Below are positions 6,629-39,748 of a DNA stretch of 64,000 nt, one piece after another. Each line of letters opens with the position of its first letter. Positions within the stretch are counted from its first letter, which is position 1. The DNA comes from Bacteroidota bacterium. GTDB lineage: Bacteria > Bacteroidota > JABWAT01. The notes below the pieces were generated by a model. The model searched no databases, was not told the DNA's origin, and was given only the letters and a program-made list of their open reading frames with translations. Made by a program: the position numbers and the translations under genes. The stretch covers positions 1 to 64,000 of the forward strand of contig JAKLJL010000003.1 in the NCBI GenBank assembly GCA_023151185.1. Direction: 5' to 3'.

Positions 6629-6676
6629 GAAAGGGAAGAAAAACAGCAGTATTTTTTCATTTTTTTTAAGGGCAGC

Positions 6677-7024
6677 ATGCACGAACTTTCTGTAACCCAG
6701 GAACTTCTTGAACTTGTCGGACGGTCGGTTCCTCAGGGGCAACTGCATCTGGTCAGAGAGATAAAAGTACGGGTTGGCATGAACGGACATCTGCTTCCTG
6801 ATTCACTGGAATTCTGCTATGAAGCCATAAAAGGCGAATTCGGGTTGTCTGCCGCCAGAATGGAAATAATTAAAATCCCGGTGACGGCCCGGTGTAAAAC
6901 CTGCGGGCTCAGGTTCGAGGTTCAGGAGAACCGGTATCTGTGTTCGGCATGCGGCAGTTCTTCTCTGACGGTTCTGACGGGAAATGAACTTCACCTGTCT
7001 GAATTAATTCTGGATGATGAATAA
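6677..7024 (+). CDS. hypA: Hydrogenase nickel-insertion protein HypA
   Basis: A 115-residue HypA/HybF protein. The N-terminal MHE provides the nickel-binding His2. The zinc-finger pair is CKTC and CSAC in the C-terminal half, separated by about 15 residues. HypA works with HypB to deliver nickel to the large subunit of [NiFe]-hydrogenases before proteolytic maturation. The start at 6677 is fixed because His2 must follow the initiator Met; GGGCAGC precedes it. It forms a two-gene unit with the downstream AAA+ activator (12-base gap), which faces the structural hydrogenase operon. hypB and hypCDEF are not in the window. Confidence 0.92.
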   Translation: MHELSVTQELLELVGRSVPQGQLHLVREIKVRVGMNGHLLPDSLEFCYEAIKGEFGLSAARMEIIKIPVTARCKTCGLRFEVQENRYLCSACGSSSLTVLTGNELHLSELILDDE

Positions 7025-7036
7025 GGATCTGACGGT

Positions 7037-8032
7037 ATGAATGAAAATTCGGGCCGGACGATCAGTCTGGTTACTTCCAACCGCGAAATGAAACAGCTTC
7101 TGGCCGAACTGGACCGGTTTACAGCCACTGAAGTTCCTGTTCTGCTCATTGGGGAGACCGGCGTCGGCAAGGAATTGTTTGCCGAGTACATTCACCTGAG
7201 CAGTCACCGTTCGGGCCGGCCGTTCGTCCGGCTGTCCCTGTCATCTCTTCCGGAATCTCTGCTGGCCAGTGAACTTTTCGGCCATGAAAAGGGATCTTTT
7301 ACAAGTGCCTCCACAGAAAAAAAGGGCCTGTTTGAAATCGCCAGCGGCGGAACGCTGTTTCTGGATGATATTGATGATGTTCCCATGGAAATCCAGACCA
7401 AACTGCTCAGGGTGCTTGAAAGCGGTGAAATTTTCCGGGTAGGGGGCATCCGGCCGATTGCAGTCGATGTCCGGCTGATTTCAGCAACCAAAGTCGACCT
7501 GAAGCTCCTGGCTTCTGAAGGGAAATTCCGGTCGGATCTGTACTACCGGATTCTCGGGTATCCGGTTAAAATTCCGCCGCTTCGTGACCGTTTGGATGAC
7601 ATCCCGCTGCTGGTCAGACATTTTATCCGTCATTACGCACCGTCGAAACCCGTATCGGTTCATCCCGATGCAATGAAGGCTATGGAACTGCATGCCTGGC
7701 CGGGCAACATCCGGGAACTCAGGCACGTGGTTCAGCGGCTGGTGTATCTGGCCGAGGAAGAAATTCTGTTTCAGCATCTGCCCGAAGACATCCGCCTGAC
7801 GGCAGATAAACCGGGTTCCCAGTCTGATCTCTGTCTGAACTGTCTGATAGAGGAAAAAATGAACCATGAAGATATCATGGCCTGTCTTGAGAAAAAACTG
7901 ATTGAGTTTGCCGTGAAGGAATCCGGCGGGAATAAAACCCAGGCGGCAAAACGGCTTGGGCTTAGTCCTTCAACCTTTCGGGATAAATTAACCCGGTACG
8001 GACTTTCCGAACCGGATCAAACTACCTCCTGA
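7037..8032 (+). CDS. Sigma-54-type AAA+ transcriptional activator with variant motifs
   Basis: A 331-residue enhancer-binding-protein-like regulator made of an AAA+ domain plus a Fis-type helix-turn-helix (GGNKTQAAKRLGLSPSTFRD), with no N-terminal receiver, GAF or PAS domain. Walker A is GETGVGKE, and FRSDLYYRI and PLRDR are intact. Two hallmark motifs differ from consensus: the sigma-54-contacting GAFTGA loop reads GSFTSA, and the Walker B segment reads LFLDDIDD where DE is usual. The linker before the DNA-binding domain has a CLNC pair and another Cys (MACLEK). It lies directly behind hypA and overlaps the convergent maturation protease gene by 16 bases. The obvious candidate target is the hydrogenase operon, whose upstream region carries a GG-N10-GC element. 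Without a sensory domain, activity may be set by expression level, the cysteines or a partner protein (inference). Confidence 0.88.
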   Translation: MNENSGRTISLVTSNREMKQLLAELDRFTATEVPVLLIGETGVGKELFAEYIHLSSHRSGRPFVRLSLSSLPESLLASELFGHEKGSFTSASTEKKGLFEIASGGTLFLDDIDDVPMEIQTKLLRVLESGEIFRVGGIRPIAVDVRLISATKVDLKLLASEGKFRSDLYYRILGYPVKIPPLRDRLDDIPLLVRHFIRHYAPSKPVSVHPDAMKAMELHAWPGNIRELRHVVQRLVYLAEEEILFQHLPEDIRLTADKPGSQSDLCLNCLIEEKMNHEDIMACLEKKLIEFAVKESGGNKTQAAKRLGLSPSTFRDKLTRYGLSEPDQTTS

Positions 8033-9233: not shown

Positions 9234-10952
9234 TCAAAATGTATCGATCTGGTGAATGTACCTGCCCTTTTCGTCATAAATGTGGACGGCACAGGCCAGA
9301 CACGGATCAAAACTGTGAATCGTCCTGAGTACTTCGAGCGGATTTTCCGGGTCTGCAATCGGGGTTCCGATCAGCGAAGATTCATAGGCTGACCGCTGTC
9401 CGTTCGGATCCCGGGGCGATGCATTCCAGGTGCTGGGCACAACCAGTTGATAGTTGGCTGTTTTCCGGTCTTTAATGACGATCCAGTGAGCCAGAGCACC
9501 GCGGGGTGCTTCGGTCATCCCGACACCTTTGGCTTCGGCGGGCCAGGTTTCCGGATTTCTGAATTCCTGGTTAACGGTTCTGGTATCCCCGTTTTTGATA
9601 TTGGAAATCAGCATATCATAGAACTCAAGGGCCCAGTTGGCAACCAGACGGCTTTCAAGTCCGCGGGCAGCCGTTCTTCCCAGTGTCGAGAACAGGGCAC
9701 CAACCGGGACGTTCAGTTTACCCAGAGCTTCGGTAACCACTTCTTTGTACTCGGCTTTTCCGGAAGCAAATCCGACCAGCATACGGGAAAGCGGTCCAAC
9801 TTCCATCGGGTTGCCTTTCCACCGCGGGGTTTTCAGCCAGGAATATTTCTGATCCACATTCAGGAAATCATAGGGTGGTTTCGGACCCGAGTAAGCCAGT
9901 TTGGTTTCCCCTTCCCAGGGGTGACGGCCGGCATCATTCCCGTCGGAATACTCATAGTAGGACCGGGAAATGAATTCCTTGATCTGTTCACTGTCTTTTC
10001 CGTCGACAGGAACTACTTCGTTCAGGTTCCGGCCCATCACAATTCCTCTCGGAAATTTGAAGGAAGAAACATCTGAATACCCGTTGGTTGGCAGATCGCC
10101 GTAAGCCAGATAATTTTCCAGTCCGCCACCGATGGCACCCCAGTCTTTGTAGAAGGAGGCAATGGCCATCAGATCGGGAATGTAAACCTGTTCAATAAAA
10201 GTCCGGGCATCGTCCAGAAGCTGTTTAACCTGGGCCAGGCGTTCAGCATTCAGGGCATTGGTTTCATTGATGTTGATGGCGCAGGCTACCCCGCCGACGA
10301 GATAATTCGGGTGCGGATTTTTCCCGCCGAAGATGGCGTGGATCTTCACGATTTCCTTTTGCCATTCCAGCGCTTCCAGGTAGTGGGCTACCCCCATCAG
10401 GTTGGCCTCGGCCGGCAGTTTATAGGCTTTGTGCCCCCAGTAACCATTGGCAAAAATGCCAAGCTGGCCGCTGTCCACAAACCCCTTCAGTCGTTTCTGC
10501 AGATCCCGGAAGTACCCCGGTGAGCTTTTGGGCCAGCTCGAGATACTTTGAGCCAGGTTCGAGGTTGCCACAGGGTCTGCACTGAGTGCACTGACGACAT
10601 CTACCCAGTCAAGGGCATGAAGGTGGTAGAAGTGAACCACGTGATCCTGCATCATCTGGCTGCAGAACATCAGGTTTCTGATGAGTTCGGCATTTTGCGG
10701 AATCTGCCAGCCGAGGGCATCTTCAACCGACCGTACAGAAGCCAGGGCATGTACGGTGGTGCACACGCCGCAAACCCGTTCAACAAAAGCCCAGACATCG
10801 CGCGGATCGCGGTCTTTCACAATCAGTTCAATTCCCCTGACCATGGTGCCCGAACTGTAGGCATCCACAACCTTTCCGTCTTTGACTTCAAGTTCCACTC
10901 TCAGGTGGCCTTCGATCCGGGTAACGGGATCAATGACAATCCGGTTTGCCAT
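9234..10952 (-). CDS. hyaB: [NiFe]-hydrogenase large (catalytic) subunit, group 1
   Basis: A 572-residue subunit carrying the NiFe(CN)2CO site. The N-terminal nickel motif is RVCGVCTTVHALASVR (after RIEGHLRVE), and the C-terminal motif is DPCLACAVH, followed by a 15-residue tail (ending HQIDTF) that the HyaD-like protease would remove after the His. All four Cys ligands are present. It has no signal peptide and would be exported as a complex by the Tat signal of the small subunit. The expected role is H2 oxidation at the periplasmic face. It lies 5 bases after the small-subunit gene. Confidence 0.96.
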   Translation of the reverse strand: MANRIVIDPVTRIEGHLRVELEVKDGKVVDAYSSGTMVRGIELIVKDRDPRDVWAFVERVCGVCTTVHALASVRSVEDALGWQIPQNAELIRNLMFCSQMMQDHVVHFYHLHALDWVDVVSALSADPVATSNLAQSISSWPKSSPGYFRDLQKRLKGFVDSGQLGIFANGYWGHKAYKLPAEANLMGVAHYLEALEWQKEIVKIHAIFGGKNPHPNYLVGGVACAININETNALNAERLAQVKQLLDDARTFIEQVYIPDLMAIASFYKDWGAIGGGLENYLAYGDLPTNGYSDVSSFKFPRGIVMGRNLNEVVPVDGKDSEQIKEFISRSYYEYSDGNDAGRHPWEGETKLAYSGPKPPYDFLNVDQKYSWLKTPRWKGNPMEVGPLSRMLVGFASGKAEYKEVVTEALGKLNVPVGALFSTLGRTAARGLESRLVANWALEFYDMLISNIKNGDTRTVNQEFRNPETWPAEAKGVGMTEAPRGALAHWIVIKDRKTANYQLVVPSTWNASPRDPNGQRSAYESSLIGTPIADPENPLEVLRTIHSFDPCLACAVHIYDEKGRYIHQIDTF

Positions 10953-10957
10953 AAGAA

Positions 10958-12076
10958 TTATTCTCCTTCACGATCCCCGTCAGGGACCGAACTGGTTTCA
11001 ATATGTTCGTTGATTTCATCTTTTTTGCTGATGTTGGTAATGACGGCATGTGCGGCAATACCGACACCGGTGGCAACACCCAGGCCCAGACCGATTTTGT
11101 CTGCGGTGGTCTCAATTCCGAATCCCGGGAAAGAGGCGAGATGCTGATAGAACGGGCCGTGATCCCAGAAATCCGCTTCCGAACAGCCGATGCATCCGTG
11201 GCCAGACTGAATCGGGAAAGAGGTTCCCTCGTTCCATTTGGTAACGCCGCAGGCATTGTAAGTAACCGGACCGCGGCATCCGACTTTGTACAGACAGTAT
11301 CCCTTGCGGGCATTTTCATCATCGAATTCCTCGACGAACAGCCCGGCATCGTAATTTGGTCTGCGGTAGCAGGTATCGTGGACCCGGCGGCTGTAAAAGG
11401 CCAGCGGACGTCCCTGACCATCCAGTTGGGGAATGGTGCCAAAGGCCATAATGTGAACAATGACACCGGCCATGACTTCGCCGATCGGCGGGCAGCCCGG
11501 CACTTTGATCAGAGGTTTGCCGTTAATGATTTTGTGGATCGGGGTGGCTGTAGTCGGGTTCGGGTTGGCGGCTTGAACGCAGCCGTTTGAGGCACAGTTG
11601 CCCCAGGCGATGACGGCTTTTGCCCCCTCAGCAGCTTCCTTAAGGCGCATTTCAGCCGTCTTCCCGCCGATGCAGCAGTACACACCGTCTTCACCGGTTG
11701 GGACCGATCCTTCAACCAGAAGAATGTACTCACCCCAGTTGTCCTTCATGGACTTGGCCAGAGCTGCTTCAGCCTGATGACCGGCTGCAGCCTGCAGGGT
11801 TTCGGTATAGTCGAGTGAAATATTATCGAGAATGATGTCGGCAACAATTGGGTGTGAGGTCCGGATGAAGGATTCACTGCAGCAGGTACATTCCTGCAGG
11901 TGAAGCCAGATAACGGCCGGCCGTTTTTTCGTTTCCATTGCCCTGACAACAGAAGAAATACCGGTGGATTCCACACCGATGAAGGCTCCCATCCAGGCGC
12001 AGAATTTCAAAAAGTCGCGCCGGGAGTACCCCTTATTTTTCATTTCTTCCCAAACTGAACTGGTAGTCTCATCCAT
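10958..12076 (-). CDS. hyaA: [NiFe]-hydrogenase small subunit, six-Cys (O2-tolerant) type, Tat signal
   Basis: A 372-residue iron-sulfur subunit. A twin-arginine signal (SRRDFLKF) at about residues 18-25 is followed by a hydrophobic stretch. The proximal-cluster region reads ECTCCSES and later WGNCASNGC; compared with standard small subunits, both supernumerary cysteines typical of O2-tolerant membrane hydrogenases (E. coli Hyd-1 positions 19 and 120) are present. Medial and distal cluster motifs include DTCYRRP, KGYCLYKVGC and GCIGCSE. A C-terminal hydrophobic helix (about 335-355) anchors it near the cytochrome b. I prefer the ATG at 12076 because AGGAAG lies 6 bases before it; an ATG two codons upstream (12082) abuts the same ribosome site. 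It is the first gene of a four-gene operon with hyaB, hyaC and hyaD. Confidence 0.95.
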   Translation of the reverse strand: MDETTSSVWEEMKNKGYSRRDFLKFCAWMGAFIGVESTGISSVVRAMETKKRPAVIWLHLQECTCCSESFIRTSHPIVADIILDNISLDYTETLQAAAGHQAEAALAKSMKDNWGEYILLVEGSVPTGEDGVYCCIGGKTAEMRLKEAAEGAKAVIAWGNCASNGCVQAANPNPTTATPIHKIINGKPLIKVPGCPPIGEVMAGVIVHIMAFGTIPQLDGQGRPLAFYSRRVHDTCYRRPNYDAGLFVEEFDDENARKGYCLYKVGCRGPVTYNACGVTKWNEGTSFPIQSGHGCIGCSEADFWDHGPFYQHLASFPGFGIETTADKIGLGLGVATGVGIAAHAVITNISKKDEINEHIETSSVPDGDREGE

Positions 12077-12168
12077 GAGCATCTTCCTTCCTGTTTAAAG
12101 TCGAACGGTTGGTTCCGGCCCAGACCGGATATTGGTTTCTGATTGCGATTTCAGATTGGGGATTGCAA

Positions 12169-12185
12169 AGCAAAGACTTTGCCGG
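12169..12185 (-). promoter_or_regulatory. Candidate sigma-54 (-24/-12) promoter of the hydrogenase operon
   Basis: On the minus strand the sequence CCGGCAAAGTCTTTGCT has GG and GC separated by exactly 10 bases, with GGCA and TTGCT matching the TGGCAC-N5-TTGCW consensus. It lies about 93 bases before the chosen hyaA start, so the leader would be about 80 bases. A sigma-54-type activator is encoded by the facing hypA operon, which strengthens the reading. Three mismatches remain (T to C before GG, and two in the CG after GGCA). Confidence 0.5.
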
Positions 12186-12350
12186 ATTTTTTTCCGCTGC
12201 CCATTTTTCCGGATCCACCGCCCTGAACCTCTTTTTCTGGCTGAAAAGACAGATTGCGGGCTTTTGATTCAGATATAAGGATCAATATGTCGGTATATAG
12301 TTACAAAAAAATGACGAAAAACCGTCGGAGAGGTCACGGAAAACCGTGGG

Positions 12351-33352: not shown

Positions 33353-34039
33353 ATGACTCATAAAATACTTATTGTGGAAGACGAAATTCAGCTTGCATTC
33401 GGGCTGAAAGATAACCTTGAAATTGAAGGCTACCAGGTTGAAGTGGCCAATACCGGCACCGACGGGTATGAACTGCTGACCAAAAATACCTACGACCTTA
33501 TCCTTCTGGATGTTATGCTTCCCGGAATGTCGGGTTTCGAAATTCTGAAGCGGATCCGTCAATCGGGAAATGTAACCCCGGTCATAATGGTGACGGCCAA
33601 GTCTGATGAAATTGACAAAGTGCTGGGGCTGGAACTGGGTGCTGATGATTACATGACCAAGCCCTTCAGTCTCAGAGAACTTTTTGCCCGGGTGAAGGCC
33701 GTCCTTCGCCGCCAGTCGGGTTCCTCGGTTTCAGTTGCAACCCCGGTCAATCTGGGCATTCTGCTGGTTGATTTCGGTAATTATACGGCCTCAAAAGACG
33801 GCGAACAGGTTCCTATGACACCGAAGGAAATCGAAGTCCTGAAATTTTTGTGGGAAAGAAAGAACCAGACCGTCAGCCGTGACGAACTTTTAACCCAGGT
33901 TTGGGGTTATGATGACAACATCAGTTCCCGCACGGTGGATAACTTCATTCTGAAGATCCGCCAGAAAATGGAAAGTGACCCTGCCCACCCCAAACACATC
34001 ATTACAATTCATGGTGTGGGGTACAAACTCATCCCCTGA
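33353..34039 (+). CDS. OmpR/PhoB-family response regulator
   Basis: A 228-residue regulator. Receiver: IVEDEI acidic pair, Asp53 (LLDVMLPG), MVTAK and TKPFS. Winged helix: PMTPKEIEVLKFLW, LLTQVWGYDD, SSRTVDNFILKIRQKM and HGVGYKLIP. ACCGGAGAG lies upstream of the ATG as a ribosome site. It pairs with the kinase encoded just before it and ends 5 bases before a strong terminator. Target genes cannot be read from the window. Confidence 0.94.
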   Translation: MTHKILIVEDEIQLAFGLKDNLEIEGYQVEVANTGTDGYELLTKNTYDLILLDVMLPGMSGFEILKRIRQSGNVTPVIMVTAKSDEIDKVLGLELGADDYMTKPFSLRELFARVKAVLRRQSGSSVSVATPVNLGILLVDFGNYTASKDGEQVPMTPKEIEVLKFLWERKNQTVSRDELLTQVWGYDDNISSRTVDNFILKIRQKMESDPAHPKHIITIHGVGYKLIP

Positions 34040-34044
34040 CAGAA

Positions 34045-34078
34045 AAAAAAAGGGCTGAATTTTTCAGCCCTTTTTTGT
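34045..34078 (+). terminator. Intrinsic terminator after the two-component operon
   Basis: AAGGGCTGA and TCAGCCCTT form a perfect 9-base-pair stem around a 6-base AT loop. The arms are flanked by A-runs and T-runs (seven Ts), so the structure can work on both strands. It lies 5 bases past the regulator stop and also faces the end of the Psr operon. Confidence 0.92.
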
Positions 34079-34221: not shown

Positions 34222-34860
34222 TCAGCACCCGCCGGAAGCTTTTTTCTTCTTGGGGGTGATCGAGGTTTTGGCAGCCGGCGGTGTCATGGGTTTCGCGGTG
34301 GACTCAGTGGAAAGTCCGCCGCCACCACCGAGAGCCTGAGCAGCCCCCATCCGGAAGTTATACCGGGCAAATTCTTCATCCGGGCTGGTGGTTTTGGGTG
34401 CCTGCGGGTTCAGAATTGTTTCGAACCAGTAATTCAGCCCGCCTTCCAGAACAAAATTGTTCAGATACCCAAGCTGACGGGTAATCATCCAGGCTTCGTT
34501 TGCCTGAAGGGTTCCGTTTGAATAAAAGACATTGGCCTTGATATCCTGGTTCAGCAGGTCGGTATACTGGTCATTCAGCAGATCGGCCAGCGGAATGTTG
34601 ATGGCGCCCGGCAGACTGAATTTCTCGAATTCATCGGGTGACCTGACGTCGATCAACTGAAGGGAGGGGTCTTTGGCTACCAGCATCGAAGCAACCTGAT
34701 CGGCTGAATAAAAGTGCTCTTTCTGATTGACAAGCTGGACCATCTGGGCTGCCGTCAGTTTATACGGCCGGATGCTGTCTGAAGGAACTGCAGCAATAAT
34801 CAGCGCCAGCGGAAGCAGGAAAGCAGCCAGAATAAGGATGGGTTTAAAATTGGGTTTCAT
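34222..34860 (-). CDS. Exported rhodanese-like protein lacking the catalytic Cys, with a Cys-terminated tail
   Basis: A 212-residue protein with an N-terminal signal or anchor helix (FKPILILAAFLLPLALIIAA). The rhodanese fold is clear: LQLIDVRSPDEFEKFSLPGAINIPL. The active-site loop, however, reads VFYSNGTLQANEA, so the persulfide-forming Cys is Ser. After GLNYWFET the chain ends in a low-complexity tail: a GGGGG run, Thr/Pro/Ala-rich sequence, KKKK and the final ASGGC. That last residue is the only cysteine in the whole protein. The ATG at 34860 follows AAGGAAAAC; the longer frame to 34905 overlaps the transporter gene. It is the last gene of the Psr/YeeE operon. It cannot be an ordinary sulfurtransferase; a carrier role for the terminal Cys is my inference. 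Confidence 0.85.
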   Translation of the reverse strand: MKPNFKPILILAAFLLPLALIIAAVPSDSIRPYKLTAAQMVQLVNQKEHFYSADQVASMLVAKDPSLQLIDVRSPDEFEKFSLPGAINIPLADLLNDQYTDLLNQDIKANVFYSNGTLQANEAWMITRQLGYLNNFVLEGGLNYWFETILNPQAPKTTSPDEEFARYNFRMGAAQALGGGGGLSTESTAKPMTPPAAKTSITPKKKKASGGC

Positions 34861-34862
34861 GG

Positions 34863-35462
34863 TTAGTTTTCCTTTCCGGATTTGGCCATACGGGATTCGA
34901 CCCACTCAGATACAAAAAAGGCTGCAAAGGCAATCACCACAATTGCCAGGGCCATCAGTCCATCCGAAATACCCAGCCATTCGCCGATTTTCGGACTACC
35001 CATATTTCCGGCAACATACATATCCTTCCAGAGATCAAAGCCGAATCCCCAGATGTAAACACCCAGAAAAAGACCGCCGATGAAAACCATGGCATCGACC
35101 TTACCGATGGCGGCGCCGCAGAAAGACGTTCCCGGACAGTATCCGCCGAGAATGAATCCGGCACCCATAATTACCCCACCCGAGATTGCTGAGGTGAGGA
35201 AGGTCGGATTCACGTACACCATGCTCAGATCCATCCAACCGAAAAGACCGAATAACAGAATTCCGGTCATGGCGGTAATGCCGCCGGTAAAGAAAACCTT
35301 GAGCACGGTCATATCATAACCGTAAAAAACGCCGGCAAGACGGCGGCTGCTTGAAAATCCGGCCTGTTCGAGAACGAACCCGAAAGCTATGCCGATGAAA
35401 AAGGCGAGCAGAAAATTGGTGTCGCCCGAGATAATGTCGTTAACTGATAGGGGTCCCATCAT
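34863..35462 (-). CDS. YeeE/YedE-family transporter half (C-terminal-type module)
   Basis: A 199-residue membrane protein with five or so helices and the family signature GGYCPGTSFCGAAIGKVDAM, containing two Cys. YeeE/TsuA proteins move thiosulfate or other sulfur compounds across the inner membrane through a line of conserved cysteines. TsuA itself is about twice as long, and here the two halves are separate genes. It follows the other half by 15 bases and precedes the rhodanese-like gene by 2 bases. Sulfur traffic is well supported; the exact substrate is not. Confidence 0.85.
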   Translation of the reverse strand: MMGPLSVNDIISGDTNFLLAFFIGIAFGFVLEQAGFSSSRRLAGVFYGYDMTVLKVFFTGGITAMTGILLFGLFGWMDLSMVYVNPTFLTSAISGGVIMGAGFILGGYCPGTSFCGAAIGKVDAMVFIGGLFLGVYIWGFGFDLWKDMYVAGNMGSPKIGEWLGISDGLMALAIVVIAFAAFFVSEWVESRMAKSGKEN

Positions 35463-35477
35463 TCAAATCCTTTAGGT

Positions 35478-36014
35478 TTAGATCCAGTTTTTTCTGAAAA
35501 AGTAGGCCAGAGCATAGCCGGTGCCGAATATGGCCATCATGGTCAGGATTCCGCCGGCAGACATAACGGCAAGACCGCTGAGTGCAGAACCACTGGTGCA
35601 GCCCCGGCCAAGCTGTGAACCGAAGCCGAAGAGGATACCGCCGGCTACGGCAAAGATGAGCCGTTTTTTAGAAGTTGTTTGCGGTCCATGTTCCGTTTTA
35701 AGGCTCAGTCTTCCCGAAAGGATTCCGGAAACAAAAGCACCCAGGATGACTCCCATCATCTGGAAGACCAGCCAGTTTTTCATGGGATTTCCTGTATGTC
35801 CCTTTTCGTAATCCCTGATAAAATCTGAACTTTCGGCCGCATGGGGGTTAACTGTGACCACCGAAGTGACCACAACACTTTTTACGGCTCCGCTGGCGCC
35901 GAGCCCCCGTCCTGAAATGAAGTTTGCAGCAAGCAGAACAAGCCCGAGCAGAACCCCTGCAAGGTAAGGGTTCATGTAGGCTCTTACTTTTTTGGTTGGT
36001 GATGAAGATTCCAT
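35478..36014 (-). CDS. YeeE/YedE-family transporter half (N-terminal-type module)
   Basis: A 178-residue membrane protein with about four helices: a first one at residues 18-34 (LAGVLLGLVLLAANFISG), a periplasm-facing loop of about 40 residues, then MMGVILGAFVSGILSGRL and the signature FGSQLGRGCTSGSALSGLA with one Cys. It is homologous in general plan to the downstream YeeE gene, and together they should make one functional unit or heteromer. It lies 15 bases downstream of the PsrC-like gene. An N-terminal Ser/Thr/Lys-rich stretch (SSSPTKKVR) is cytosolic. Confidence 0.85.
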   Translation of the reverse strand: MESSSPTKKVRAYMNPYLAGVLLGLVLLAANFISGRGLGASGAVKSVVVTSVVTVNPHAAESSDFIRDYEKGHTGNPMKNWLVFQMMGVILGAFVSGILSGRLSLKTEHGPQTTSKKRLIFAVAGGILFGFGSQLGRGCTSGSALSGLAVMSAGGILTMMAIFGTGYALAYFFRKNWI

Positions 36015-36029
36015 AGATAATCCGGAGTT

Positions 36030-36971
36030 TTAGTAGAGATAACGGCTTTCCTGACCGGCAAACGAGATCAGAAACCTCAGCATCAGGCTGCCGGCAAGCA
36101 CCAGAAGTGAGGGAACAATGGCTGGAACGTGGTAATCAAACAATTCAAGAACATCCAGAATGGCGGGGACCACCAAACCCAGAAAAACCACAAAAATCCA
36201 GAATGGTGCGGTGTAGGGTCCGCCTAAAAACAGATTGGCAGCTTCTATCTGAACCTGGGTGCTGGCCATAAAGCCCATGAACATGTGGGTGATCAGAAAC
36301 AGTTCAATGCCGATGATGATAAGATCAACCCGGGCAAAATAGGCCCGTTCTTCCTTGCTTCTGGTAAACATGACAATGGCTGCGGCCCCCGCTGAAAGTC
36401 CGGATGCCAGGAAAAGCGGACCCAGAATTGAAGTGTTCCACAGGGGCCGGGCGTTAAATGCCGAGAACAGAATGCCGGTATAGACCCCCAGAATGACCGA
36501 ATAAATGAGCATTACCCAGGCCAGAGCCAGTTTATACTTATTAGCAAATTTTTCAGCTTCCTTCAGCCAGGTATATTTCCAGTCCCAGTTGGGGAAAAAT
36601 TCCCGGATGTGCAGGGCACTCCAGACAATTGAAAGCGGCGTTACGACGAGCAAAACCCAGGCTCCCCACGACATGGGGGACTGAAGTTTGACCGTCGTAT
36701 ACAGGCGCCAGAAAAACAGCTTATGGTTCAAATCGAAAAACAGGCAGGCAAGACCGGCCACCAGAAGCACCGGAGCAAGAAAGGGAACCTTTTTAACTGC
36801 CCAGGGATGAGCTTCTTCCCGTCCCCTGATGTAGCTTAGGGCGGCAAAGACCAGGATTCCGGCGGCCAGTCCGCCAAGGAACAGGTAAAGAGGGATCTGC
36901 CAGTGCCAGATATTCAAAGTCGGATCCACATAAGGATTCATGCGTCCGCTGATGATCAGTTCTTCTTTCAT
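36030..36971 (-). CDS. psrC: NrfD/PsrC-family membrane subunit of polysulfide/thiosulfate reductase
   Basis: A 313-residue integral membrane protein with about eight helices (for example LYLFLGGLAAGILVFAALSYI and GPLFLASGLSAGAAAIVMF). NrfD/PsrC proteins anchor the molybdoenzyme and its ferredoxin-like subunit and exchange electrons with quinones. It lies 15 bases after psrB. PsrC usually spans about 300-320 residues, so the length fits. Whether it oxidises quinol (reductase direction) or reduces quinone is not visible, but the paired PsrA type favours reduction of a sulfur compound. Confidence 0.9.
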   Translation of the reverse strand: MKEELIISGRMNPYVDPTLNIWHWQIPLYLFLGGLAAGILVFAALSYIRGREEAHPWAVKKVPFLAPVLLVAGLACLFFDLNHKLFFWRLYTTVKLQSPMSWGAWVLLVVTPLSIVWSALHIREFFPNWDWKYTWLKEAEKFANKYKLALAWVMLIYSVILGVYTGILFSAFNARPLWNTSILGPLFLASGLSAGAAAIVMFTRSKEERAYFARVDLIIIGIELFLITHMFMGFMASTQVQIEAANLFLGGPYTAPFWIFVVFLGLVVPAILDVLELFDYHVPAIVPSLLVLAGSLMLRFLISFAGQESRYLY

Positions 36972-36986: not shown

Positions 36987-37520
36987 TTAAATCAGAAAAT
37001 AGAGTTGCGGATCCGTTCCGGCTTCCGGAATCAGAGTTTTGAACTTCCGTTTTTTCAGGATGACCGAAACTTCGCTGTTGGCATCATCCAGATCACCAAA
37101 GTACAGGCATTTGGTGGGGCAGACTTCGACACAGGCTGGTTTTTGTCCTTTCTGAACCCGGTGGAAACAGAAAGTACATTTGTCGACGTAGCCATCGGGG
37201 TGCGGGTACCGGGCATCATACGGGCAGGAGGCGATACAGGCACCGCAACCGATGCAGTCGTTGTGGGTTACCAGAACGATACCGCCATCCACGATATGAC
37301 TGGCACCGGTGGGGCAGCATCTCACACAGGGCGCATTGGCGCAATGGTTGCACCGTTCGCTTCTGAGTTCCAGTTCAAGCTGCGGGTAGGTTCCGTTGGT
37401 TTCTTCAACAATCCAGTCACGGCAGTACCCGATCGGAACGTTGTTTTCGGTCTGGCAGGCAACGACACAATCACTGCAGCCCACACATTTTTTGGTATCA
37501 ATGGCCATTGCATAACGCAT
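36987..37520 (-). CDS. psrB: Four-cluster [4Fe-4S] ferredoxin-like subunit (PsrB)
   Basis: A 177-residue electron-transfer subunit with four Cys clusters: CVGCSDCVVAC, CNHCANAPCVRCC, CIGCGACIASC, and CTFC...CVEVCPTKC. The first Cys of the chain starts at about residue 12, with no signal peptide, so it is exported with the catalytic subunit. It passes electrons between PsrC and PsrA. Gap sizes (11 and 15 bases) place it firmly in the operon. Closest families are PsrB, PhsB and NrfC; all share the same layout. Confidence 0.93.
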   Translation of the reverse strand: MRYAMAIDTKKCVGCSDCVVACQTENNVPIGYCRDWIVEETNGTYPQLELELRSERCNHCANAPCVRCCPTGASHIVDGGIVLVTHNDCIGCGACIASCPYDARYPHPDGYVDKCTFCFHRVQKGQKPACVEVCPTKCLYFGDLDDANSEVSVILKKRKFKTLIPEAGTDPQLYFLI

Positions 37521-37531
37521 ATCTTACCTGC

Positions 37532-39748
37532 TCAGGCTAAAACTTGAGGAATAAAAGTCACAAAGTTGCCCCGCATTCCGGTCCCGCCCATGACGGGATC
37601 AACTTTGACACGGGTGATCATCTGGGTATCAGAAACTCCTTTCCCGAAGGATCTTTCAAGCTGTTTCTGTTTATGTCCGAAACCGTGAACCATGTAAACG
37701 GAATCCCACCGTATTCTTTCGGTTACCCTGACCTTGATGGCAAAGTCAGACTGGATACCGTCCTGGTTTTTCAGGAAAATGGGGTCGTTGTTTTTCAGTC
37801 CCCATTCTTTGGCAACTTTTGGGTTCATCCACAGGACGTTTTCATCCATCAGATCGGTCAGGTTCGGGTTGTTGGCCGTCCGGCTGAAGGTGTGCATGGG
37901 TGCCCGGCCGTAAATCAGGCGGTAAAAACCTGCCGGTGGTTCTTCGTGGGCGGTATATTTCGGCATCGGGTCAAATCCGGCCTGTTCCAGAGAAGTGGAA
38001 TAAAATTCAATTTTACCTGAATTGGTGAAAAACTCGACCTTTTCACCGTCTTTGAAATACAGATCATCGTCATCCCGGTCCCAGGTGATCACCCCTTTTT
38101 TCTTCAGTTCTTCGAGGGAGGATCCCATCTGTTTAAGCTGCCAGTCGAGATAGTCTTCCTGGTTTTCGAAGTGGAAATAATCGCCAAGGTTCAGCCGGTG
38201 TGCAAGCTGATAGGCCATCCAGTACGCCGGTTTGGTTTCCCAGGCCGGCTCCATGGCCGGCATTCTGAGGGCAATGGCCGGTTTCCGGTGCGGACTGTCC
38301 CGCAGCGAGTCGTAGCGTTCCAGATAGGTGCATTCGGGCAGGACAACATCGGCCCAGCCGGTAATTTCCATCGGCATAGTATCAACTACGACCAAAAACT
38401 CAAGGGCCTGAATGGCTTCAAGGGTATGAGCCTGGTTGGGCATGGTGAAAATAAGGTTGGTTCCATTTACGATCCAGGCCTTCAGAAAGGCATCACGTTC
38501 CTTTGTGGGGATGGAGGCATCCACAAAGGCATTTGCAACCGGACTTTCAGCCAGCGGGTAAAGACCGGGGAACCAGTCGGTCCAGGTCATTTTTGGTTTC
38601 GGATACTCGGGATGCGGGAAGGACGGTACCGATTTTTTTGCCGGCCGGTAAAATCCGCCTCTTCTTCCCCATGAGCCCAGAAGTCCGTTCAGAATGGCAA
38701 TAGCCCGTTCACGCTGGGTGTCATCGCCGTACCAGGTCACGTGCCGTCCCGGGTGAATAATCACAGCCGGTTTGGCGTTGCTCATTTCTCTTGCTGTCTG
38801 CCGGATAAGTTCAGGTTCGAGGGTTGTAATGCCGTAAGCCCATTCGGGTGTATAGGATTTTACGTGTTCTTTAAGTTGCTCAAATCCGGTGGTGTATTGC
38901 TCGACATAGGCTTTATCGTACCAGCCGTTGTAAATGATTTCATGAATCCAGGCCAGAAGGAGGGCAATATCGGTCGCCGGTTTAATCGGCAGCCAGTATT
39001 TCGATTTGCTCGCCGCTGTTGAGAATCTGGGATCCACGGTAATGATGGTAGCCTTTTTATCGATGGCATCCGACATTTCCTGTACCTGGCCGTTGTGCAT
39101 ATTTTCGCCGATATGAGATCCAATCAGAACCAGACATTTGGTGTCTCTCAAGTCAGTAATTTCGGGGGAATCCGGCTGTTCGCCGAAAGTGGCAATAAAG
39201 GCGGCATCCCGTGGCCCCCGGCACTGAGCATAGGAGGGCTGGGTGATGTTGGTCGATCCCATGGCCTTCAGAAGGTCGCCGAAATACTTTCCGCCGCTTC
39301 CGTGGGTAAACAGGGCAATAGCCTCAGGGCCGTATTTGGCCGAGACTGCCGAGAGTTTTTTGGCAGTGTAATCCAGAGCTTCCTCCCAGGAAACTTCACG
39401 GAACACCTGTTTGCCTCTTTCTTCAACCCGGATCAGCGGTTTTTTAAGCCGGTTCTGATCCGTATACATCCCGACACCGCCGGTACCCCGGGGGCAGAAC
39501 CTTCCGTTTGAGTGCTGGTCATCGTCATTTCCGGTGATCTTCCAGAGTTCTCCCTGTTCATTTTTATAAGCCCAGCCGGCACATTTCCAGAAACAGATTT
39601 CACAGTAGGTGGGTGTTTTCATATCCAGAGCCACCGGAGGACGGCTGCTTTCCTTCCGGTCGGTTGCGAAGGCAAGTAACCCTCCGCTGAAAGCCAGTGC
39701 ACCGGTTCCCAGCGCCATGATTTTAATGAAATCCCTGCGGGTAGTCAT
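37532..39748 (-). CDS. psrA: Molybdopterin oxidoreductase, polysulfide/thiosulfate reductase-like (PsrA/PhsA)
   Basis: A 738-residue catalytic subunit with a Tat signal (TTRRDFIKIMALG) and a [4Fe-4S] motif C-x2-C-x3-C (CEICFWKC) completed by RFCPRG. SYAQCRGPR probably supplies the Cys ligand of molybdenum. Further Mo-bisPGD contacts are visible: IGSHIGENMHNGQ, VDPRFSTAASK, VNGTNLIFTMPNQ and a C-terminal cofactor-binding domain (YMVHGFGHK). Cys-ligated members include PsrA, PhsA, SrrA-like and periplasmic nitrate reductase, but the PsrB and NrfD-type partners exclude Nap. YeeE neighbours favour thiosulfate or polysulfide as substrate. First gene of a six-gene operon. H2 from the hydrogenase region could be the electron source (inference). 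Confidence 0.9.
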   Translation of the reverse strand: MTTRRDFIKIMALGTGALAFSGGLLAFATDRKESSRPPVALDMKTPTYCEICFWKCAGWAYKNEQGELWKITGNDDDQHSNGRFCPRGTGGVGMYTDQNRLKKPLIRVEERGKQVFREVSWEEALDYTAKKLSAVSAKYGPEAIALFTHGSGGKYFGDLLKAMGSTNITQPSYAQCRGPRDAAFIATFGEQPDSPEITDLRDTKCLVLIGSHIGENMHNGQVQEMSDAIDKKATIITVDPRFSTAASKSKYWLPIKPATDIALLLAWIHEIIYNGWYDKAYVEQYTTGFEQLKEHVKSYTPEWAYGITTLEPELIRQTAREMSNAKPAVIIHPGRHVTWYGDDTQRERAIAILNGLLGSWGRRGGFYRPAKKSVPSFPHPEYPKPKMTWTDWFPGLYPLAESPVANAFVDASIPTKERDAFLKAWIVNGTNLIFTMPNQAHTLEAIQALEFLVVVDTMPMEITGWADVVLPECTYLERYDSLRDSPHRKPAIALRMPAMEPAWETKPAYWMAYQLAHRLNLGDYFHFENQEDYLDWQLKQMGSSLEELKKKGVITWDRDDDDLYFKDGEKVEFFTNSGKIEFYSTSLEQAGFDPMPKYTAHEEPPAGFYRLIYGRAPMHTFSRTANNPNLTDLMDENVLWMNPKVAKEWGLKNNDPIFLKNQDGIQSDFAIKVRVTERIRWDSVYMVHGFGHKQKQLERSFGKGVSDTQMITRVKVDPVMGGTGMRGNFVTFIPQVLA

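Follow-up and report, generated by a model that had tools for sequence, protein, structure and literature searches.

A rhodanese-like protein with a conserved C-terminal cysteine is a candidate periplasmic sulfur carrier beside split YeeE transporters

Genes and Features of the Locus

The window, a 64,000-nucleotide stretch of a Bacteroidota bacterium contig (JAKLJL010000003.1), contains six codirectional genes on the minus strand, running from 39748 to 34222. They encode a molybdopterin subunit, a 4Fe-4S protein, an NrfD protein, two halves of a YeeE transporter and, last, a rhodanese-like protein. The names RhodC, YeeN and YeeC are coined here for the rhodanese-like protein and the two YeeE halves. 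A sequence-only reading of this DNA had singled out 34222-36014, a range that is real but shorter than the unit, as the operon extends to 39748. The features of the operon and its surroundings are as follows:

37532..39748, minus strand: molybdopterin subunit of the Psr/Phs family with Tat motif MTTRRDFIK (PDB 2VPW, E 8.6e-190, residues 4-731)
36987..37520, minus strand: 4Fe-4S ferredoxin subunit, PsrB-like (profile matches)
36030..36971, minus strand: NrfD/PsrC-type membrane subunit (Pfam NrfD, E 6e-47)
35478..36014, minus strand: YeeC, split YeeE half with Cys139 (Sulf_transp profile 172-308; counterpart in S. thermophila TsuA: Cys293)
34863..35462, minus strand: YeeN, split YeeE half with Cys109 in GGYCPGTS (Sulf_transp profile 11-159)
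34222..34860, minus strand: RhodC, rhodanese-like protein of 212 aa tethered to the membrane, without the catalytic Cys and ending GGC (Pfam Rhodanese, E 1.6e-14)
34789..34842, minus strand: predicted N-terminal transmembrane helix of RhodC, residues 7-24 (family charge asymmetry N-in/C-out)
34519..34521, minus strand: Ser114 codon at the rhodanese catalytic Cys position (read from sequence; family column of 125)
34423..34704, minus strand: rhodanese domain of RhodC, residues 53-146 (Pfam; model pLDDT about 96)
34225..34320, minus strand: disordered Pro/Gly/Lys-rich tail of RhodC, residues 181-212, ending KKKKASGGC (pLDDT 44-57)
34225..34233, minus strand: terminal Gly-Gly-Cys codons of RhodC (read from sequence; conserved in the locus survey below)
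34052..34070, no strand assigned: bidirectional hairpin resembling an intrinsic terminator (sequence read directly)

The three upstream genes supply a PsrA-type Mo subunit with the Tat motif RRDFIK, a ferredoxin and an NrfD membrane subunit, and the Pfam and 2VPW matches confirm the Psr-type reductase that the sequence-only reading had placed beside the transporter. The best NCBIfam match of the Mo subunit is PhsA, at a score below the equivalog cut-off (465 of 694 bits), and its C terminus bears no GGC-type tail extension. Downstream, the hairpin separates the operon from a converging response-regulator gene (33353-34039). Elsewhere in the same genome (G000:C1:74578-75342) lies an 878-aa protein with several rhodanese-like stretches behind a part resembling pyridine-nucleotide-disulfide oxidoreductases.

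RhodC is a genuine open reading frame with an ATG start at 34860. Its Pfam scan returned the Rhodanese family only, with no match to SoxY (PF13501) or the DsrC family. An AlphaFold model (mean pLDDT 85.2) is confident for the rhodanese domain and disordered in the tail from residue 181, and its top Foldseek matches are rhodaneses. The active-site loop reads VFYSNGT, with Ser114 at the position expected for the catalytic Cys, and the only Cys of the protein is the final residue, Cys212. Pfam, model and Foldseek thus bear out a rhodanese fold with Ser for the catalytic Cys, and the single Cys does sit at the end of a Gly-, Pro- and Lys-rich tail, both as first proposed.

The location of RhodC was predicted from the charges flanking its transmembrane helix. 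Of 90 proteins, 76 have a higher net charge on the N-terminal side and 3 have a lower one, although raw K+R counts separate the two sides poorly (among stand-alone RhodC, 22 N>C, 26 equal and 12 N<C). Together with the positive-inside rule, the net-charge asymmetry places the rhodanese domain and its arm, by prediction, in the periplasm, in agreement with the Tat-exported reductase partner.

Conservation of the Terminal Cysteine

To survey loci without bias, an alignment of YeeN was used for a profile scan of one genome per species, making the choice of locus independent of the tail. Of the 80 loci recovered, 76 were assessable (two are cut inside RhodC by a contig end and two end before RhodC). 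All 76 encode RhodC, directly downstream of YeeN in 49 and fused to it in 27, and Cys is the last or last-but-one residue in 76/76, a count over loci related by descent and hence not of independent events. A second survey, anchored on RhodC, searched 296 genomes of the window's phylum; 40 neighbourhoods were read, and the terminal Cys is present in 36 of 37 loci with long-type YeeE halves. The single exception, L175, contains a frameshift, and its other frame ends KKKKREGC. Relatives collected earlier have the terminal Cys in 11 of 11 cases. Over these three sets the tails end in GGC (87), EGC (16), GCS (12), MGC (4) and five single variants. Many of the surveyed loci are metagenome-assembled, and locus types were called from profile matches within the fetched stretch; named strains include Labilibaculum sp. 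K2S and a Carboxylicivirga.

The catalytic column of 125 RhodC sequences reads S63, A40, G18, D2 and C2, such that the family has the fold of an active rhodanese and a residue other than Cys in the catalytic loop of 123/125 members. In 105 of the 125, domain and tail together contain no Cys besides the terminal one. Median pairwise identity of the rhodanese domains is 29%, yet Asp71, Arg73 and Cys212 are invariant, although for Cys212 this holds partly by construction because the 125-sequence set was filtered on the terminal Cys; figures free of this bias come from the loci (76/76, 36/37 and 11/11). The family tail has a median length of 34 aa and a mean net charge of +4.8, and none is negative.

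Among ORFs of at least 100 aa in the loci of the first survey, 79 of 83 RhodC-profile matches end in GC(S/G), compared with 0 of 989 other ORFs, which argues that this ending is not due to chance; any C-terminal Cys occurs in 7 of the 989. Likewise, 40 of the 899 ORFs in L126-L263 terminate in GC followed by 0-2 residues, and every one of them is part of the RhodC/YeeE module. Conservation of both the lost catalytic Cys and the terminal Cys, the check named by the sequence-only reading, is therefore well supported, and few homologues combine a normal catalytic Cys with absence of the terminal Cys, the pattern that would speak against it.

A Class of Split YeeE Transporters

YeeN and YeeC match complementary parts of the Pfam Sulf_transp profile, and each carries a Cys that is invariant among its homologues (Cys109 in 78/78 for YeeN, Cys139 in 74/74 for YeeC). 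The pair is thus a split YeeE/YedE (PF04143) protein, as the earlier description of two separate half-genes, each with Cys, had it. Aligned to TsuA, the YeeC Cys falls on Cys293, and a second, weaker alignment places it on Cys91; both residues are reported to be indispensable for the transporter (PMC11582611). A PDB profile search with the YeeN alignment gave no match. The AlphaFold model of a YeeN::RhodC fusion has a pLDDT of 63.5 with a weak membrane half, and its Foldseek matches are rhodaneses.

RhodC is absent from 12 of 12 assessable YeeE loci of other classes in the window's phylum, 9 of which have short PmpAB-like halves, and several of these loci come from genomes that also hold the RhodC module. 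PmpA and PmpB are likewise encoded by two genes corresponding to two YeeE halves, each with a conserved Cys (PMC11582611), but they are shorter than YeeN and YeeC and have no RhodC in the loci examined. Because short halves of this type lack RhodC, being split is not the point. The proposed genomic link of the tail to split YeeE and Psr genes consequently stands for one YeeE class (76/76), and falls for the split state as such and for Psr as such. A TusA motif scan returned nothing next to the long-type loci except matches that look like chance, and one match adjoining the divergent YeeE in L260; the scan is too coarse to argue for replacement. In the window genome a SoxY search gave zero matches, but its control likewise matched nowhere, so this does not establish absence.

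Reductase Partners and Distribution

About half of the loci have a Psr-type operon as partner, as in the window. In about 50 of 125 the partner is an octahaem cytochrome, usually accompanied by cytochrome b561, and here RhodC is nearly always fused to YeeN. The cytochrome matches PDB 1SP3 (E 2.7e-126), which we take to be the Shewanella tetrathionate reductase. PsrA and the octahaem cytochrome are unrelated periplasmic reductases that alternate as partner, which indicates that the tail follows the transporter and not Psr. In a third, small class the module lies with multi-domain sulfurtransferases and the RhodC tail is mostly MGC; L178, L181, L184 and L189 each combine a rhodanese-domain sulfurtransferase, a split YeeE and a RhodC ending MGC; L178 and L184 additionally have an aminotransferase class V protein adjoining the module. 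L120 holds parts of both the octahaem and Psr module types, diverging in one stretch. Across all sets, the YeeN::RhodC fusion occurs in 50 loci. In a phylogenetic tree the module types cluster, and fusion and reductase partner have changed more than once; the main argument is independent of the tree.

The module occurs in about six phyla. Record titles from the YeeN survey name Bacteroidota, Ignavibacteriota, Neomarinimicrobiota, Acidobacteriota, Armatimonadota and LCP-89. A plasmid search found one locus, on a Gemmatirosa megaplasmid (Gemmatimonadota), with the tail RRRGC, and no relatives were found on the viral contigs searched. A search centred on an Acidobacteriota genome yielded the tails GGCGG (L250), GGGCSA, GGCSS, EGC and RGC, of which that of L250 is identical to the SoxY carrier motif (PMC6067878).

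Exceptions and an Arm on PsrA

In four related genomes, the arm appears on PsrA instead of the rhodanese. The PsrA homologues there carry an extension ending EEEEGGC (47 aa in L259), and the rhodanese has no tail; in L259 its catalytic Cys is intact. The four PsrA genes are:

L259:8638-10956, minus strand: PsrA homologue ending EEEEGGC
L270:3532-5847: PsrA homologue ending EEEEGGC
L271:3258-5579: PsrA homologue ending EEEEGGC
L272:2419-4734: PsrA homologue ending EEEEGGC

Rhodanese, YeeN and PsrA share one operon in L259, L270 and L271. In G450, the fourth genome, the genes fall on two contigs, L272 with PsrA and the beginning of YeeN and L273 with the YeeN end and the rhodanese, making linkage of PsrA and rhodanese likely. 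L259 also encodes a YeeC fused to cytochrome b561 (6658-7920, minus strand), which physically joins the transporter to an electron-transfer subunit.

Other departures are scattered. The sister loci L036 and L156 retain both the tail and a Cys at the catalytic position, and L115 has a tandem second RhodC copy with neither. The divergent YeeE locus L260, with TusA nearby, has an intact-Cys rhodanese and no arm, and L251, L256 and L257 of the Acidobacteriota set also depart from the plain pattern. In L262, a protein combining a metallo-beta-lactamase and three rhodanese domains (10151-12253, minus strand) ends in the arm KKRKSVGC and adjoins a YeeN-fused rhodanese without an arm. ORF 13 of L050 is a second rhodanese with a catalytic Cys (VVYCKKG), a terminal GGC and a lipoprotein-like N terminus.

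Comparison With Known Sulfur Carriers

DsrC and TusE relay sulfur through a Cys near a mobile C terminus and in this respect resemble RhodC, but they are cytoplasmic and of a fold other than rhodanese, and RhodC has no Pfam match to their family. The sequence-only reading had offered them as the analogue; SoxY is closer, being a periplasmic protein that carries sulfur between enzymes on a Cys in a Gly-rich C-terminal swinging arm, GGCGG (PMC6067878, PMC5336275), just as RhodC, predicted by its charge asymmetry to be periplasmic, has its Cys on a Gly-rich arm at the C terminus (GGC in the window protein; homologues have GGC, GGCS, GGCG and GGCGG). Unlike RhodC, whose Pfam match is Rhodanese only, SoxY belongs to another family and pairs with SoxZ. 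RhodC further differs in having a transmembrane anchor and a cationic linker, and in adjoining reductases and YeeE instead of Sox enzymes. Sud of Wolinella is a rhodanese-fold protein that uses an in-loop catalytic Cys, whereas RhodC lacks an in-loop Cys and has its thiol on the tail. Sud acts in the periplasm as a sulfurtransferase during polysulfide respiration and is able to carry a polysulfide chain (PMC3397948 and the 1998 work cited there).

YeeD/TsuB is a partner of YeeE/TsuA that is sometimes fused to it and supplies a reactive Cys (PMC11073785), and RhodC too is a sometimes fused YeeE partner with a candidate reactive Cys. However, YeeD is a small TusA-fold protein with a CPxP motif that works in the cytoplasm (PMC11073785, PMC11582611), unlike the rhodanese-fold, predicted periplasmic RhodC with its C-terminal thiol. 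In the open literature (subscription papers lay outside the scope), we found no description of the RhodC family or its tail.

A Proposed Role for RhodC

We propose, with a probability of about 0.65, that RhodC works in the manner of SoxY, as a swinging thiol arm in the periplasm that relays sulfur between a periplasmic sulfur enzyme and the split YeeE. RhodC would be the dedicated periplasmic partner of one class of split YeeE, its rhodanese fold having given up the catalytic Cys to serve as a tethered scaffold, and the working thiol would be the tip of a cationic flexible arm of about 34 residues ending (G)GC. This thiol may pick up sulfur, as a persulfide or S-thiosulfonate, at PsrA (in the window) or at the octahaem cytochrome (in sister loci), and may exchange it with the YeeE conduit at its conserved Cys, as SoxY does between Sox enzymes. 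We infer sulfur carriage by Cys212, its chemical form, its docking at YeeE and its direction. In favor of a carrier, the terminal Cys is kept despite the low identity of the rhodanese domains. Against it, the reductase active site is already periplasmic, leaving the need for a transmembrane sulfur conduit unexplained. The envelope sulfur hand-off suggested by the sequence-only reading therefore survives in part, as the pattern endures in most loci, without the Psr-specific link and the DsrC/TusE analogy.

The conserved terminal Cys could serve another thiol role. One is a structural or regulatory disulfide, which would tie RhodC to YeeE or to the reductase or work as a redox switch, with no carriage of sulfur. 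Such an assembly disulfide would equally need a single conserved thiol on a flexible arm beside Cys-bearing proteins, but we judge it quite improbable: the conserved Cys of YeeN and YeeC lie in motifs matching the functional Cys91 and Cys293 of TsuA (PMC11582611), fused YeeN::RhodC needs no extra lock, a known sulfur carrier has its Cys in a matching GGC context (PMC6067878), and the partner enzymes all act on sulfur compounds. Ligation by the terminal Cys of a metal, haem or Fe-S centre in the partner would suit cytochromes and Fe-S/Mo enzymes, yet the same tail accompanies two unrelated main partners and a 34-residue linker that moves is ill suited to permanent ligation, making this reading extremely unlikely. 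A signal function of the tail in sorting, processing or lipid anchoring is also very unlikely. Basic tails with a final Cys do resemble membrane-targeting tails elsewhere in biology, but RhodC already has a transmembrane helix, residues may follow the Cys (GGCS, GGCGG), and a tail also occurs on PsrA bearing a twin-arginine motif. A lipid anchor in particular was rejected because the tail persists in the YeeN fusions, which YeeN, an integral membrane protein, already holds in the membrane.

A carrier working outward, with cytoplasmic sulfur leaving through YeeE and being loaded by RhodC onto the periplasmic reductase, seems unlikely. Genomic context gives no direction, and the arm that PsrA bears in four genomes would suit both delivery and pick-up; the one reason for favoring import is that characterised YeeE/TsuA and SoxT proteins import (PMC11073785, PMC11582611). 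A broader form of the swinging-arm carrier, which we put forward tentatively and at somewhat less than even odds, is that the terminal-Cys arm is an interchangeable element coupling periplasmic sulfur reductases covalently to the YeeE conduit, with the rhodanese relic as usual bearer and PsrA as a possible one. This would constitute a previously undescribed form of sulfur channelling in thiosulfate, tetrathionate or polysulfide respiration in several phyla.

If the swinging-arm reading is true, RhodC would join SoxY as the second periplasmic sulfur carrier of the swinging-arm kind, sharing its tip chemistry but not its fold, and a conserved gene now named only rhodanese-like would gain a function. 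The family offers a natural comparison between a thiol in the catalytic loop and one on an arm, rarely both. YeeE transporters would, moreover, be tied to respiration instead of assimilation.
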